This document shows positions 9,603-15,552 of a stretch of 38,849 nucleotides of DNA, in pieces; positions within the stretch are counted from its first letter, which is position 1, and the number at the start of each line of letters is the position of its first letter. The position numbers and the translations under genes were made by a program. The notes below the pieces were generated by a model. That model was not told the origin of the DNA and made no database searches. It was given only the letters and a program-made list of their open reading frames with translations. Origin of the DNA: Bryobacterales bacterium (GTDB lineage Bacteria; Acidobacteriota; Terriglobia; Bryobacterales; Bryobacteraceae); contig JAOAPR010000239.1 in the NCBI GenBank assembly GCA_025463005.1, positions 1-38,849 on the forward strand, in the 5' to 3' direction.

Positions 9603-11435
9603 CTACCAGCCGACCGGCTTGCCTTTGTTCTGCTCGTCGAGCCATTTTTGGAGCGGAGCGAAGTAATCGCGGATGGCTGTTGCGTCCATCTCCCGCTTGC
9701 CCGTGATTTCCTGAAGCGCGTCCTGCCAAGGCTTGCTCAATCCCATGGCGAGCATCCTGTTCAGCTTGGTGCCGGCTTCCTTGCTCTCGTAAATCGAGCA
9801 GCGATGCAGCGGGGTGCTGCTCTGGCCAGGGCAACCGGCCGCTTCCGCCAAAGCCCGGTGGAACTGGAACTGAAGAATATCGGCGAGGAAGTAGCGCGTG
9901 TAGGGCACGTTCGCGGGCACGTGGTATTTCGCGCCGGGATCGAAAAATTCATCCGACCGCGGCTCCGGCGGAGCGATGCCCTGGTATTTCAGCCGTAACT
10001 GCCACCAGGCTTCGTTGTACTTATCGGGCGGAATCTCACCCGAAAAAACGCGCCAGCGCCACTGGTCGATCATCAAGCCGAACGGCAGAAATGCGATCTT
10101 CTCCAGGGCCTTTTTCAGGAGCAGGCCCATATCCTTCGAGGCGTCGGGAGCCTTGGGCAGGAATCCCAGCTTCACCAGATACTCCGGCGTGACCGAGAGG
10201 GCGATGGTATCGCCGATAGCTTCGTGGAAGCCGTCGTTGGCGCTGTCGCGGAACAGGATGGGCTGGGTATTGTACGCGCGCTGATAAAAATTGTGACCCA
10301 GCTCGTGGTGAATCGTAGTGAAATCTTCTTCCGTGATGTCGATGCACATCTTTATGCGGAGATCGTTGACGTTATCCACGTCCCACGCACTGGCGTGGCA
10401 CACCACTTCGCGATCGCGCGGCTTTACGAACAGGCTGCGCTTCCAAAAAGTCTCGGGCAGAGGATCGAACCCCAGCGACTTGAAGAATCCTTCGCCATAC
10501 TTGACCATCTGGATCGGATCCGTCTTGCGCGATTTGAGAATCTGCGTCAGATCGTAGCCGGGATCGGCGTCCGCGGGCGCCACCAGCTTATAGACGTTCG
10601 ACCAGTCCTGCGCCCAGATGTTCCCCATCAAGTGCGCCGGCAGGGGGCCGTTTTCGGGGACCAGATTGCCATATTTCTGATGCAGCCGGGCGCGCACGTA
10701 GGCGTGCAGCGAGACATACAGCGGCCGAACCTGTTCCCACAGCCGGTCGAGCTCCTTGGAGAAGTCGTCGGCGGACATGTCGTATTTGGATCGCCACATC
10801 GCGCCGGTGTCTTTGAAGCCCAGCTCCGCGGCGCCCTTGTTCGAGAGCTCGACGAAGCGGGTGAAATCCTTGCGCATGGGCAATGAAATGGTGTGCCAGC
10901 CCTTCCAGACATCCAGCAGCTCGGCCGGATTGGTGCTGTTGGCCATTATCTTGGTGATGTCGTTGATATCGAGGCAGGTCGCCGGGGCGCTCCCCTGGCC
11001 ATCCTTGCAGTATTTGCCTTTGCCGTAGGTGGCGTCGAGCGAAGCCGCGAGTTTGCTCACTTCGGCGCTTTCCTTCGGGTCAGACGGTGGGGCGAGCGTG
11101 AATCCGATTTTCAGAAGGTTCAACTTGCGGGCGTCGTCGGCGGAAACCTGAACGCCATCGAACTGCTTGGCCTGCTTGGCAAGGCGAACGGCTTCATCGC
11201 CGGCGCGCTGGCCGGAGGCGGCGGAAAGGGCCTCAGTGTCGTCGGTGATGAAGTTTTCCTGGACCCAGGAAGCTCGGCCGGACTCAACCCCGAGACTATT
11301 CAGCTTCTGCTCCGCGTCTTCGAGAAACTTCTTGGCGTCCCCGGCGCCGGGCTTGGATTGACCGCAGCCGGCCAGGACCAGCAGAGCCGCCAGGAGACTT
11401 ACGCGGAAAAGCACGCATGAGATCAGCGTTCGCAT
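9603..11435 (-). CDS. Lipoprotein peptidyl-dipeptidase, ACE-like (peptidase family M2)
   Basis: 610 aa. The N-terminus MRTLISCVLFRVSLLAALLVLAGC is a lipoprotein signal with lipobox LAGC, so the enzyme is probably membrane-anchored facing the periplasm. The zinc site is HHELGHNFYQRAYNTQP (around 377-392), followed by the third-ligand segment FHEAIGDTIALS, which matches angiotensin-converting-enzyme family proteins, as does SANDGFHEAIGD. Family members remove C-terminal dipeptides from peptides. Its start is only 38 bp from the left end of the transposon, which has cut off the original upstream region; present transcription may begin inside the element. Confidence 0.92.
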   Translation of the reverse strand: MRTLISCVLFRVSLLAALLVLAGCGQSKPGAGDAKKFLEDAEQKLNSLGVESGRASWVQENFITDDTEALSAASGQRAGDEAVRLAKQAKQFDGVQVSADDARKLNLLKIGFTLAPPSDPKESAEVSKLAASLDATYGKGKYCKDGQGSAPATCLDINDITKIMANSTNPAELLDVWKGWHTISLPMRKDFTRFVELSNKGAAELGFKDTGAMWRSKYDMSADDFSKELDRLWEQVRPLYVSLHAYVRARLHQKYGNLVPENGPLPAHLMGNIWAQDWSNVYKLVAPADADPGYDLTQILKSRKTDPIQMVKYGEGFFKSLGFDPLPETFWKRSLFVKPRDREVVCHASAWDVDNVNDLRIKMCIDITEEDFTTIHHELGHNFYQRAYNTQPILFRDSANDGFHEAIGDTIALSVTPEYLVKLGFLPKAPDASKDMGLLLKKALEKIAFLPFGLMIDQWRWRVFSGEIPPDKYNEAWWQLRLKYQGIAPPEPRSDEFFDPGAKYHVPANVPYTRYFLADILQFQFHRALAEAAGCPGQSSTPLHRCSIYESKEAGTKLNRMLAMGLSKPWQDALQEITGKREMDATAIRDYFAPLQKWLDEQNKGKPVGW

Positions 11436-11465: not shown

Positions 11466-11473
11466 CGATATCC
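11466..11473. repeat. Target-site duplication, left copy
   Basis: CGATATCC directly abuts the left terminal inverted repeat and is repeated exactly at 14678-14685 beyond the right end. A perfect 8-bp duplication is the footprint of transposition and suggests the insertion is fairly recent. Confidence 0.9.
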
Positions 11474-11499
11474 GGTAGTGTCCTATAGTGCGGTGCTAG
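11474..11499 (+). repeat. Transposon terminal inverted repeat, left
   Basis: 26 bp starting GGTAGTGTCCTATAGTG and ending GGTGCTAG. It pairs with 14651-14677 with a single 1-nt gap. Confidence 0.92.
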
Positions 11500-11532
11500 G
11501 CGATTGGGCAGGGAAAACACATCTCAACCCTT

Positions 11533-12312
11533 TTACTCCCCGCGCGTTTCTTCCCATCCCATCTTGACCAGTTCAAGATACTGGCGCAGGCGTTCAAGGT
11601 GAGTGGTAGACAAATCTGCCTCGGGTCCGATCAAAAAGCGAACTTCGGCGGTTACACCCTTTGATAAGGGCCAAGAAAAAAGGTGGGTCTGTGATAACTT
11701 CGATCCTGCCCCTGCTTTCCCTGAGGATGATCCGCCAAGATTCACAATATTGGCCTTAGTCGGCTGATGATCTGTTTCAGGCACGTTGGGATCGGCCTCC
11801 TCTTCCGATTCTAACGCACCTTCTTCTGATAAACCAGCTATAACTACACTGTCCTTAAAATCCCTCACAAAGCCTTCTACAGCCCTAGGGTTGAAGTTCT
11901 TATAGGTCACTAACTCGCTAGCGAGAACGTCGTCAGCGGGCCAGCCGGTATCCTTATGCTGTTCAATAAGTTCTCGATAGAGGGCAGGCTCCAGAACTGC
12001 GTCCCGAAGGGCTTTTTGGCAGCGCGGATCAGTCGGAGGTAAGTTAAGTATCTCAATCGCACGTTGCGTGGGTGCGATCCTACCGTTGGACTCAGCCACC
12101 AGTCCGAATCTCTTTAGGGCGGCCAACACACTCATTGCTTGGCCGTGCGGCTTGCCAAATCCAATATGAACCGCCGCGATCTCGGCGGGAGCACCGGCCT
12201 TGCCGTCTTTGTTGTAAAGGTTCCGCACCCGGTCAATCGCCTCTTTTAGTCCGACCGTGGGGTAGTTCGGGCTTCTGTGCCTCTTAACCGGCGGCCCTGC
12301 CTGCTTTGTCAT
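11533..12312 (-). CDS. Transposon cargo A: hypothetical protein with probable winged helix
   Basis: 259 aa, family of unknown function. Visible architecture: a basic N-terminus (to ~15); a helical region ~18-90 (GLKEAIDRVRNLYNKDG, then PHGQAMSVLAALKRFGLV and GRIAPTQRAIEIL) that reads like a winged helix with a final beta hairpin; a second helical part to ~155; an acidic linker (EGALESEEEADPN, ~165-176); and a C-terminal beta-strand/helix module (FSWPLSKGVTAEVRFLIG, then HLERLRQYLELVK). Similar layouts occur in widespread uncharacterised bacterial proteins. SD sequence GGGAGG sits 7 nt before the ATG, and a good promoter with repeated TACTG motifs lies just upstream, so DNA binding and self-regulation are plausible but inferred. 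The stop lies 33 bp inside the left repeat. Confidence 0.8.
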   Translation of the reverse strand: MTKQAGPPVKRHRSPNYPTVGLKEAIDRVRNLYNKDGKAGAPAEIAAVHIGFGKPHGQAMSVLAALKRFGLVAESNGRIAPTQRAIEILNLPPTDPRCQKALRDAVLEPALYRELIEQHKDTGWPADDVLASELVTYKNFNPRAVEGFVRDFKDSVVIAGLSEEGALESEEEADPNVPETDHQPTKANIVNLGGSSSGKAGAGSKLSQTHLFSWPLSKGVTAEVRFLIGPEADLSTTHLERLRQYLELVKMGWEETRGE

Positions 12313-12654
12313 CCGCGCACCTCCCTACTGCCATATTCTACTGTGTATCGAAAGGTGGAGTCAAGCAGTAGTTTACTGTTGCTTACTGTTCTGTGCCGTG
12401 ATAACGTTGGGACGTGGCGATTGAGAACAGCCTGCCCCAAAAGCAGAAGGCCCAAGGCGCTGAACCCACCAAGGGCCTTATCTCAATTCAGGAGGTGACC
12501 GCCTTATGCGACCGCCACCAATATAGCCATGTAGTTAGCGCCCCGGCAGAGACGCCAATCCCTGCCGGGGCTAAAATCCGCACGGTGGTAGCCGTACAGA
12601 CCTTCCACTCCCATTATCGGCTTTCCATCGTGCGATCTCAAGGGAGATTCCACG
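12313..12654. other. Intergenic region of the transposon with promoter and two hairpins
   Basis: About 340 bp between divergent cargo A and the transposase. Besides the cargo A promoter it has two inverted repeats: AAGGCCC...GGGCCTT (12447-12453 / 12473-12479) and a strong 10-bp stem GCCCCGGCAG...CTGCCGGGGC (12540-12549 / 12562-12571). Neither has a T tract. Placed before the transposase, they could block translation of read-through transcripts, as in many IS elements, but this is inference. An 86-aa open frame here (12414-12674) has no ribosome site and is not called. Confidence 0.5.
12335..12388 (-). promoter_or_regulatory. Cargo A promoter with repeated TACTG motif
   Basis: On the minus strand a -35 TTGACT (12359-12364) and a -10 TAGAAT (12335-12340) are separated by 18 bp. 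TACTG occurs at 12326, 12339 (overlapping the -10), 12374 and 12384 on the plus strand, with an inverted CAGTA at 12366, so CAGTA-gtt-TACTG (12366-12378) is a perfect 13-bp palindrome just upstream of the -35. The clustering suggests an operator. The binding protein is unknown; cargo A is the obvious candidate. Confidence 0.55.
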
Positions 12655-13777
12655 GTGACCTGCCACAACTGTAAGACCGAATGTAAGCGCTCCGGAAAGC
12701 ACAGGAACGGCCTCCATCGGTTCAAATGCTCCCAGTGCTCGAAGACCTTTACGGAGGCCCACGAGCGGCCCTTGGACGAAATGCGGCTGCCCCTAGCGAA
12801 AGCCGAGATGATTCTGAAGATGCTCTGTGAAGGCGTAAGCGTCCGCAGAGCGACTAACTGACGTTCACCGCGATACAATACTTCGGTTGCTCGTGTTGGC
12901 AGGCCAACGCTGCGAGAAGCTCCTGGGCGACAAGATCCGCAACGTTCCGGTCCAGGATGTAGAACTGGATGAGCTGTGGGGTTACTGCGGTAAGAAACAG
13001 CGTGCGCTCCGGCCTGGCGACGATCCGACTTTCGGGGATTGCTGGACGTTCGTTGCAATCGAGCGACACACCAAGTTGGTTTTAAACTTCAGCCTTGGCC
13101 AGCGCGATCAGACCACCACAAACGCATTCATCGAAGGCTTACGAATTGCGACGGCGGCGAAACCGTTTCAGTTGACCGCCGATGGTCTCGGAACTTATCC
13201 GTCTGCCATCGACGCCACCCTCAGTGACCGCTGCGATTTTGCCCAACTCATCAAGGTTTACCGGGCATCACAAGAGGGTGAAGCCCGCTACAGCCCCGCC
13301 GAAGTAACCTCGACGGAGCGTATCACAGTCATCGGTAACCCCGATCCCAAAAGAATTTGCACGTCGATTGTCGAACGCCAGAACCTTACTATGCGTATGC
13401 AGATCCGCAGGCTTACACGGTTAACGAACGGCTTCAGCAAGAAGCTGGACAACCTCTGGGCTGCGTTGTGCCTGCACTTCGCTTGGTATAATTTCTGCCG
13501 GGTCCACAAATCTCTGCGGGTGACTCCGGCCATGCAAGCCGGAATCACAGACCGTGTGTGGACGGTTCAGGAACTGTTGGCGTCACCCCCGAAGGCGTGT
13601 CAGCGCTATAGGGAATCTCTCACGGCCTGCTCGAAGGTTACCACGAGGAGGCACGGGGATGGACTGTCTTTCTACGGAAATAGTCGCCTACAAGCAGGCA
13701 GACGAGATGGCAGACCACAGAATAAGCGAGTTGGCGCGACTCGTCAAAAACCAAGCCAAGGAAATTACTGCGATTAA
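12655..13777 (+). pseudogene. IS1-like transposase, frameshifted
   Basis: Starts at GTG 12655 with SD AGGGAG 8 nt upstream. The first frame encodes a zinc ribbon (CHNCKTECKRSGKHRNGLHRF and CSQCSKTF) and the start of an HTH (KAEMILKMLCEGVSVR), then stops at 12861. The continuation is one base over: RLTDVHRDTILRLLVLAGQRC, leading into the DDE domain with VELDELW, LTADGLGTY and IVERQNLTMRM. The frames do not join without a net change of 1-2 nt (or 5), between about 12846 and 12862. No A6C-type slippery run is present, so an inactivating deletion is more likely than programmed frameshifting. The frame also runs ~65 residues past the normal end (TVQELLA), overlapping cargo B by ~119 nt. The element is probably immobile unless helped in trans. 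Confidence 0.8.
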
Positions 13778-14654
13778 AGGTAAGCTCTCGGGCGATAATC
13801 CGCTACCAGCCGTTTCATCCACGCCTTCGGCTGGAATCGGATTCTGGCAATGGGTGGTACGAATCTCAGCTCCTGCCGCGCTTGTGATAGCCGTTGTCGC
13901 CTGGGTTCAACCTCAATGGAGTACCCACTCAGCAAAGGACCTTGAGACTACTATCGATGGCAGAATTGATACCAAGCTAAAATCCCCTACCAAAACCTTG
14001 GAGGATCTTAGGGTTGACGTGGCGCGGATCAGCACAAGGCTGGACGATTTCTTTCTGCTCGTTAAACCGGCTGCCAGACGCACATTAAAAGATGCTGCGG
14101 CACTCCCGGCCAAAGCATTCGCCGCCGAATTGCCTGAACTAAAAGCGGCTATCGATGTGGCAAAAACCACTAAGATTCCGTCGGCTGATTATGCGTCCGG
14201 GTTGCGGGAACGCCTTAGGGCCATTTCTACCGATGCTCCATCCTACTGGCAAACAGTGGCCTCCTTTGTGAGTTACCGGGCATCCGATGGATCTACGGTT
14301 TCTCAATTCCTGCCCCCTTGCGAATTGGTAGACGTGTTCGTAGAGCCGGGAAAGACGAAAATCAAGGATGGAAAAACCGGCAAGGTTACCACCCCGCCCC
14401 TGTTGGGTCCGATGCTTCATGCAGACTGCACAGTCGGACTGGATGGAAGAAAGATAATAGGCCACAGGTTCGTTAATTCAGTCGTTATCTATCGGGGTGG
14501 CAAGCTAGATCTTGAAAACGTGTCCTTCCAGAACTGCCTGTGGGATATCCAGATACCGCAACAAACCACCCCGGAGAAGGACGCTCGCGACATTCTTACT
14601 AGACTCCTTGAATTAGATCCAAAGAACTTGGTGCTATCGACAAAGCCCGGCTAG
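13659..14654 (+). CDS. Transposon cargo B: membrane-anchored hypothetical protein
   Basis: 331 aa from the ATG at 13659, which has SD GAGGAG 8 nt upstream; the open frame further 5' overlaps the transposase. Visible: a short helical/coiled-coil segment (HRISELARLVKNQAKEITAIKGK, ~20-42), one transmembrane helix (~63-84, WVVRISAPAALVIAVVAWV), a second helical stretch with alternating charged residues (VARISTRLDDFF), and a C-terminal beta-rich part (IIGHRFVNSVVIYRGG, LENVSFQNCLWDI) that resembles single turns of a right-handed beta helix. No catalytic motif recognised. Its TAG lies inside the right terminal repeat, so the gene and the transposon end have evolved together. With cargo A it may form a two-gene unit; function unknown. 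Confidence 0.75.
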   Translation: MDCLSTEIVAYKQADEMADHRISELARLVKNQAKEITAIKGKLSGDNPLPAVSSTPSAGIGFWQWVVRISAPAALVIAVVAWVQPQWSTHSAKDLETTIDGRIDTKLKSPTKTLEDLRVDVARISTRLDDFFLLVKPAARRTLKDAAALPAKAFAAELPELKAAIDVAKTTKIPSADYASGLRERLRAISTDAPSYWQTVASFVSYRASDGSTVSQFLPPCELVDVFVEPGKTKIKDGKTGKVTTPPLLGPMLHADCTVGLDGRKIIGHRFVNSVVIYRGGKLDLENVSFQNCLWDIQIPQQTTPEKDARDILTRLLELDPKNLVLSTKPG

Positions 14655-14677
14655 CACCGCACTATTAGGACACTACC
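14651..14677 (-). repeat. Transposon terminal inverted repeat, right
   Basis: 27 bp, beginning CTAGCACCGCACTATTAGG and ending CACTACC. It is the reverse complement of the left repeat apart from one extra A, and includes the last bases of cargo B. Confidence 0.92.
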
Positions 14678-14685
14678 CGATATCC
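14678..14685. repeat. Target-site duplication, right copy
   Basis: CGATATCC, identical to 11466-11473. Removing the element and one copy restores a 44-bp divergent spacer between the ACE-like and metallophosphoesterase genes. Confidence 0.9.
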
Positions 14686-14691
14686 TGTAAG

Positions 14692-15552
14692 TTGGGGTGC
14701 GCCAAAACCTGGATCAGAATCACCGCGATCGCGTTCCTATTGGCGCCCCTGCTGATCTGCTTGTGGGCTTTTGAAATCGAGCCCGCCAGGTTAGTCGTCC
14801 GCCATCAGCGCATCGAGCTTCCGGGGTGGCGATCCGACCTGCGAATCGCGGTTATGAGCGATCTGCACGTGGGCGCGCCGCACGTTGGGCTAGATCAGCT
14901 CCGGCGCATTGTGCAGCGCACCAACGCGGAAAACCCTGCGGTAATCGTCCTTCTGGGCGATTTTGTGATCGGCGGTCCGGGAGGCCATGGAGGCGTCGGC
15001 AACTTCGTGGAGCCGGAACAGATTGCCGACGAACTGAAGAAGCTGCGCGCGCCTTTCGGCGTGTTCGCGGTGCTGGGCAATCACGATTGGTGGGTTGACG
15101 GCGAACATGTCAGGCGAGCGCTCACCAGCGCCGGCATTCGCGTGCTCGAAAATCAAGCAGTCCGGATGGGTGGCGATGCTCACGGCCCGGCGTTCTGGCT
15201 GGGCGGTATCGGAGACCTGTGGACGCGCCATGCGGACATCCCCGGAACGCTCCGGCAAGTGGATGGCGACGATCCGGTGGTATTGATCACGCACAATCCG
15301 GACCTCTTTCCCGAAGTCCCGCCGCGCGTGAGCCTGACGCTCGCCGGGCATACGCACGGGGGCCAGGTCAACCTGCCTTTGTTCGGCCGGGTCGTGACCG
15401 TGTCGGAACGCGGCTATGGAGCCGGTGAAATCGTAGAACAGGGTCGTCATTTGTTCGTGACCACGGGCATCGGAACAAGCATCATCCCGGTGCGTTTCGG
15501 CGTGCCGCCGGAGATTGTGATTCTCACGGTGAGTCAAGCAAAATCGAGATAA
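14692..15552 (+). CDS. Membrane-anchored metallophosphoesterase (YaeI-like)
   Basis: 286 aa. An N-terminal helix (~9-27, ITAIAFLLAPLLICLWAF) anchors a calcineurin-type phosphoesterase with all metal-site motifs: MSDLHVG (Asp57, His59), LLGDFV (Asp90), LGNHDWW (Asn130, His131), THNPD (His201) and AGHTHGGQ (His220, His222). The order and the HNPD/GHTHGGQ pair resemble the YkuE/YaeI group, some of which act on lipid A or UDP-diacylglucosamine precursors; the substrate here is not established. The start is uncertain: TTG at 14692 is the best in-frame choice. The transposon ends only 14 bp upstream, so its original promoter has been separated from it. Confidence 0.88.
   Translation: MGCAKTWIRITAIAFLLAPLLICLWAFEIEPARLVVRHQRIELPGWRSDLRIAVMSDLHVGAPHVGLDQLRRIVQRTNAENPAVIVLLGDFVIGGPGGHGGVGNFVEPEQIADELKKLRAPFGVFAVLGNHDWWVDGEHVRRALTSAGIRVLENQAVRMGGDAHGPAFWLGGIGDLWTRHADIPGTLRQVDGDDPVVLITHNPDLFPEVPPRVSLTLAGHTHGGQVNLPLFGRVVTVSERGYGAGEIVEQGRHLFVTTGIGTSIIPVRFGVPPEIVILTVSQAKSR

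Follow-up and report, generated by a model that had tools for sequence, protein, structure and literature searches.

A Cargo-Bearing Transposon Related to IS1 in a Bryobacterales Genome and Its Probable Place in a Populous Group of Such Elements

Introduction

IS1 is the textbook minimal mobile element. Elements of the IS1 family are typically 0.7–1.2 kb in length and contain only a transposase, which is read from two overlapping frames by a programmed −1 frameshift at an A-run. Their short inverted repeats start GGT..TG and they generate a target duplication of 8–9 bp, and the element described here has both features. The ISMhu11 subgroup of IS1 in ISfinder is said to reach ~4.6 kb; no paper was found under that name. 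Here, we describe a 3,204-bp IS1-related element with two further genes in a 38,849-nucleotide stretch of DNA from a Bryobacterales bacterium (Acidobacteriota; GenBank assembly GCA_025463005.1, contig JAOAPR010000239.1), hereafter the window. It is very probably a transporter-type insertion sequence and a member of a populous group of IS1-related transposons in which cargo is the rule.

The transporter insertion sequence (tIS), defined in PMC9330008, is a concept linked to a paper on the IS1595 family (Siguier et al. 2009), the title of which relates that family to IS1, as cited in PMC3129680. For two other families, few tIS members are described, with one in IS6 (PMC7986276) and three in IS1202 (PMC10132070). 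Transposons of the Tn3 family, which have a ~1,000-aa TnpA and 38–40-bp repeats, carry toxin–antitoxin (TA) modules, including Gp49/HTH_37 pairs, beside their transposition genes, and these modules are recruited by and exchanged between transposons, according to Lima-Mendez et al. 2020 (PMC7157771).

The elements described here resemble tIS in that an insertion sequence with its own repeats encloses genes unrelated to transposition. They differ in that the transposase is of IS1 type (PF03400), with no IS1595 DDE match for the transposases of the window, L042 or L057, and in that cargo is the rule in the sample and is scattered over the transposase lineages. With the IS1 family they share a zinc ribbon, a helix-turn-helix (HTH) and a DDE core, short inverted repeats starting GGT, and 8-bp duplications. 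Unlike transposase-only elements of 0.7–1.2 kb, the window element has 3,204 bp and the group spans 1,966–7,450 bp, and the transposase is a single open reading frame (ORF) in 66/69 group elements, with no programmed −1 frameshift on an A-run. As in the Tn3 family, TA-type modules are carried next to transposition genes and exchanged, but the elements are far smaller, with a ~310-aa transposase in the closest relatives and 26/27-nt repeats in the window, and no resolvase was noticed in the group, although no search was aimed at resolvases or res sites. Passenger genes in insertion sequences and TA genes in Tn3 transposons are already known. No literature account was found of IS1-related elements that regularly bear cargo and have modules common to several transposase lineages, ISfinder and most subscription papers lying outside the scope of that search.

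Boundaries of the Insertion

A reading of the window from its letters alone (the sequence-only reading) had proposed a discrete insertion with near-perfect 26/27 terminal repeats and an exact 8-bp target duplication, enclosing an IS1-like transposase and two further genes near the ends. The boundaries were confirmed to the base. The insertion lies at 11474-14677 and both genes are as that reading describes them; the features are as follows.

11466..11473, no strand: target duplication, left copy, CGATATCC, 8 bp
11474..11499, + strand: left terminal inverted repeat, GGTAGTG type, 26 nt
11533..12312, − strand: left cargo gene, 259 aa, of a cargo family that recurs in 8/69 elements
~12655-13590, + strand: transposase as a whole, IS1-like
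12655..12861, + strand: N-terminal part of the transposase, zinc ribbon and start of the HTH, with a stop after the frame change
12839..13777, + strand: catalytic part of the transposase, DDE of IS1 type, in another frame, with homology to single-ORF relatives to ~13585
13659..14654, + strand: right cargo gene, 331 aa, with one predicted membrane helix at ~residues 62-83
14651..14677, − strand: right terminal inverted repeat, 27 nt
14678..14685, no strand: target duplication, right copy, CGATATCC, 8 bp, exact

The terminal inverted repeats (TIRs) agree over 26/27 nt, the single-base gap being an extra base in one of them, and the stop codon of the right gene (14652-14654) falls inside the right repeat. 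Against a matrix built from the ends of the other 68 elements of the group, the left end scores 17.8 and the right end 19.3. In a sham control, halves of different loci were joined and the same kind of rule was applied (a TIR score of at least 11 and an exact duplication of at least 8 bp); 0/400 joins passed.

A Group of 69 Bounded Elements with Cargo as the Rule

Relatives of the transposase were sought within the phylum, in 297 genomes including the window's own, and found in 55. Of 44 loci fetched with a transposase match, 28 have paired ends with a duplication, in addition to the window. A scan of 84,980 species genomes gave at least 575 confirmed relatives; among the best 80, which were kept, 43 loci are bounded (in L123 this concerns the second transposase copy of the locus), and two spurious calls were dropped. 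After removal of three duplicates, 69 distinct elements remain, the window included, with lengths of 1,966–7,450 bp and a median of 3,302. The duplication is exact, 8 or 9 bp long, in 67/69 elements and has one mismatch in the other 2, and the ends begin GGTAGT in 132/138 cases and GGTAGTG in 124/138. The sequence-only reading had named the lack of any other element with these ends as grounds for abandoning its proposal of a transporter-type IS; 69 elements with such ends and a duplication stand behind that proposal, which was sound for this element and too narrow for the group. By record title, the bounded elements come from Acidobacteria, Planctomycetes, Verrucomicrobia, Deltaproteobacteria/Thermodesulfobacteriota, and Alpha-, Beta- and Gammaproteobacteria; as most of the genomes are metagenome-assembled, any one host may be misassigned.

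In every one of the 69 elements, the DNA outside the transposase amounts to 1,082 bp or more, and one or more ORFs of 80 aa or longer are present besides the transposase. Bare forms were sought by scanning the matrix of ends around transposase matches of at least 600 bp, some of them at contig ends, with an end score of 9. No bare element was found, as 0/131 matches had both ends within 400 bp; of the copies with and without cargo that had been suggested as a check, only the former were recovered. Cargo is the rule in this sample, which holds no bare complete forms. In a same-genus genome (G289), a ~1-kb stretch at L071 9831-10859 has paired GGATAAATGTTGG-type inner ends that enclose no more than the 3' part of a transposase. 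It adjoins a fuller relative in the same locus and looks like a deletion remnant.

Movement as a Unit

Among five plasmid loci in which a transposase relative is annotated, 2/5 are bounded. On plasmid p_1 of Mesorhizobium loti 582, the bounded element has 3,370 bp, and its cargo comprises a small protein that the record calls 'histone H1', one hypothetical protein and one protein with an HTH. This cargo compares with that of other elements, mostly acidobacterial, at 49–54% (KGG-like protein), 33% (ImmA-partner) and 31–38% (Xre-ImmA). Empty sites of the element exist on plasmids of M. huakuii 583 (97.3%) and Mesorhizobium sp. AR07 (96.4%; identity over 112 bases). In both, the flanks are joined without a gap and the target is present in a single copy with one base different; two further plasmids match the left flank only, at ~98%. 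The two empty sites indicate that transposase and cargo entered as one unit. Movement as a unit is observed for this one relative and not for the window copy.

Two Layers of Extra Genes

The 327 mechanically called cargo ORFs were clustered into families, and family changes were counted on the midpoint-rooted transposase tree, in which the window is represented by its catalytic part only, and compared with 1000 label shuffles. Two families of small proteins follow the transposase. The KGG-like family occurs in 28 elements with 9 changes (shuffled mean 22.1), this cluster chaining in some longer ORFs so that, by motif, the small protein or a variant is found in 24 elements; the HGHP family occurs in 8 elements with 4 changes (shuffled mean 7.7). 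In neither case were any of the 1000 shuffles as low. The other families are scattered like shuffled labels: the left-gene family (8 changes in 8 elements, mean 7.7), Xre-ImmA (8 in 8, mean 7.7), HigA (4 in 4, mean 3.9) and DUF5343 (3 in 3).

The KGG-like protein is lysine-rich, with a GGLKGGKARA...AKKAAKARW pattern, and mostly lies near the left end, as at L085 3447-3740, L057 8488-8733 and, in a variant, L072 8848-9138. Three lysine-rich proteins tested had no match in NCBIfam and none above the cut-off in Pfam; one plasmid record annotates the gene of such a protein as 'histone H1'. The HGHP protein has ~100 aa. Together, the lysine-rich or HGHP families are present in 39/69 elements.

Cargo Content Compared with the Flanks

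The elements yielded 263 cargo ORFs of at least 80 aa and 520 flank ORFs; the 140 longest of the former were compared with 140 of the latter matched for length. Cargo matched 203 PADLOC models and flanks 31, counts that are inflated by multi-matching proteins such as one methylase with 34, whereas Pfam families matched were 50 in cargo and 136 in flanks. HTH_3 occurs in 14 cargo ORFs, against no more than 1 in the flanks. Other cargo families are Peptidase_M78 (6 ORFs), P63C (5), ClpP-like protease (3), TIR (2), SocA_Panacea (2) and Schlafen AlbA (2), with single ORFs for a DNA methylase with an Mrr domain, Fic, GmrSD and an AbiEii-type AAA. In the flanks, each of the 25 commonest families is confined to at most 2 ORFs, and most of those listed are housekeeping families; PADLOC matches also occur there in small number, including a TIR-like one. 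With E values no higher than 1e-40, PD-Lambda-2_B of PADLOC matches three of the Xre-ImmA cargo proteins, and the HigBA pair of L057 matched no PADLOC model. Judged by family name, the cargo thus appears rich in Xre/HigBA/ImmA-type and other defence-like families relative to the matched flanks. A match to the IS1595-type transposase domain (PF12762) in one of these 140 cargo ORFs indicates a second transposase inside a bounded element.

The Transposase of the Window

Both parts of the proposed IS1-like zinc ribbon, HTH and DDE plan are present in the window, although not as a single open frame: the zinc-ribbon/HTH part and the catalytic part lie in different frames. A single ORF of at least 265 aa encodes the transposase in 66/69 bounded elements, with the window among the three exceptions, and in the closest relatives the transposase reads through as one ORF of ~310 aa. 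The catalytic part matches PF03400 (DDE_Tnp_IS1) at 37.6 bits, above the cut-off of 24.1; the transposases of two relatives score 29.3 and 31.8. The N-terminal part matches IS1_IS1595_Zn (NCBIfam; E 9.8e-6, 26 bits), under the cut-off of 28, and NF033558 (NCBIfam; E 2.1e-7, 31.0 bits). The cut-off of the latter is 100 bits, above both window pieces (31.0 and 41.3); five relatives score 91.3, 86.1, 63.3, 48.9 and 109.6, so that only the last, from L085, exceeds it. The ISXO2-like DDE (PF12762) has no match in the window transposase up to E 1, nor in those of L042 and L057 up to E 0.1. In a large branch of the group (transposases of L045, L046, L052, L057 and others), the called ORF lacks the N-terminal zinc ribbon and begins at the HTH.

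The frame change is a step unlike the programmed shift of IS1 and has no A-run. We read it as damage or an assembly error, and it may also reflect recoding. Because the transposase is split by it, the window copy is probably a relic, now mobile only with help in trans, if at all.

The Two Cargo Genes of the Window

The left protein is predicted to contain a winged-helix domain (a confident model over ~residues 20-160), followed by a disordered linker and a C-terminal helix. Nothing in the insertion had seemed to resemble known cargo; this holds insofar as the left gene is unnamed by Pfam, NCBIfam and PADLOC profile searches, but not within the group, in which it is a recurrent cargo family. 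In profile–profile comparison it is colinear over 136 columns with three DUF5343-like cargo proteins, at a probability of 8.6%, and Pfam gave no DUF5343 (PF17278) match in it. On plasmid pTM3 of Tistrella mobilis (L050 5893-10370), a left-gene relative is followed on its own strand, after ~0.7 kb, by an MmeI-type restriction-modification gene. A relative of the right gene stands alone at L206 5160-6144 between degenerate GGTAGTG-type ends (scores 8.7, 16.9); it has neither a transposase nor a target duplication and is possibly a cargo-only cassette.

Weighing the Explanations

How the two genes came to lie in the element admits several explanations. An ordinary IS1-like element might have caught two neighbouring chromosomal genes by accident, one of the ends being genuine and the other a chance or remnant sequence, with no lasting cargo relation. 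The right gene fits such an event in that it has weak relatives in 13/398 other class genomes (E up to 0.01) and none of the 13 loci fetched around them has a transposase match; cargo also differs among the three bounded elements of this genome (the window, L042 and L059). Set against this are the lack of bare elements among 131 transposase matches, the right-gene relative between group-type ends at L206, and the recurrence of the left gene as cargo in 8/69 elements from distant hosts, 4 of which were fetched through the left gene itself and the other 4 through the transposase. Accidental capture is very unlikely. The two genes could instead encode accessory proteins of the transposition machinery, since both lie near the ends, the right stop codon falls within the repeat, and certain small proteins in the group follow the transposase. 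On the tree, however, the left-gene family is distributed like shuffled labels; it is undetected in 61/69 elements, and no cargo ORF in the other 68 matches the right gene. An accessory role is very unlikely. That the two genes form one TA or abortive-infection pair, with a winged-helix DNA-binding repressor or antitoxin and a membrane effector, is a tentative suggestion that we consider unlikely.

The reading of the window element as a transporter-type member of a cargo-bearing IS1-related group has several points against it. Paired ends and a duplication were required of every bounded element, which makes the set a selected one, and 16/44 and 37/80 loci are unbounded (contig ends, decay, or ends outside the search). 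In the bare-form test, 4/138 known ends score under the threshold, some loci were counted twice, and matches under 600 bp were left out, that of L071 9831-10859 among them. The enrichment of defence-like cargo rests on mechanically called ORFs and on family names, and neither window cargo gene matches a toxin, antitoxin or defence family in Pfam, NCBIfam or PADLOC. The KGG2 variant (5 elements, 4 changes) is indistinct from shuffles, 98/1000 of which were as low. As for the window copy, it has no KGG-like, KGG2 or HGHP protein, no second copy was found in its own genome, and no clean empty site was found for its insertion; its present mobility is doubtful because of the split transposase, the lack of a second copy and the absence of either transposase-tracking small protein.

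In the mechanism that we propose for the group, the transposase, with its zinc ribbon or HTH N-terminus and DDE core, would bind the GGTAGTG inverted repeats, and the whole unit would be inserted with an 8-bp stagger. The lysine-rich 'GGLKGGKARA' and the 'HGHP' proteins, co-inherited with the transposase, may be accessories of the transposition module, and the exchangeable modules, often Xre/HigBA/ImmA-type or defence-like, may favour retention of the element or protect the host. The window copy would hold one exchangeable module, the predicted winged-helix protein family, and one predicted membrane protein.

Genomic Setting

The neighbours of the insertion, named from sequence alone, are the following.

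9603-11435, − strand: M2-type peptidase gene, left neighbour
14692-15552, + strand: metallophosphoesterase gene, right neighbour

The G+C content is 54.2% in the insertion and 59.7% in the whole window, and third-position G+C is 0.54 in both cargo genes and 0.79 and 0.72 in the two neighbours, which fits foreign DNA. The suggested search for empty sites, which succeeded for the M. loti relative, gave only one same-genus genome that keeps both neighbours, with a protein-kinase gene in between. That gene, at L192 3296-6058 (G308), is serine/threonine protein kinase-like, lies between orthologues of the two flanking genes and is absent from that place in the window. The window's own genome has two other bounded group elements with differing cargo. 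The one on contig C125 (L042 2391-5618) carries a HigA-like Xre protein and a DUF3467-cluster protein adjoining a RelE/Gp49-like ORF (a name again taken from the sequence), and the one on C163 (L059 6890-9069) a single cargo protein with a predicted membrane helix.

Implications

The group may be a dedicated cargo vehicle and not an occasionally gene-catching insertion sequence, a proposal that we regard as evenly balanced. Its minimal unit would be the transposase with its ends, joined in about half of the elements (39/69) by a lysine-rich GGxxGG or HGHP accessory, with a permanent cargo slot. This slot would circulate interchangeable addiction and anti-phage modules (Xre-ImmA, HigBA-DUF3467, TIR, Panacea, DNA methylase-Mrr, Fic, P63C and the winged-helix family of the window) among Acidobacteriota, Planctomycetota, Verrucomicrobiota, Deltaproteobacteria-type lineages, and Alpha-, Beta- and Gammaproteobacteria, and the modules would pay for retention.

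Such elements are often annotated just as 'IS1 family transposase' beside 'hypothetical protein', as in the plasmid records examined, which give the former name to 4/5 plasmid matches covering at least 80% of the query. GGTAGTG-type ends with an 8-bp duplication around such a transposase would provide a search rule for unfamiliar defence or addiction genes, and the two genes of the window are candidates of this kind. If the reading is true, a large branch related to IS1 would be a compact vehicle that spreads immunity genes, with TA and defence-like modules common to distant transposase lineages across phyla.

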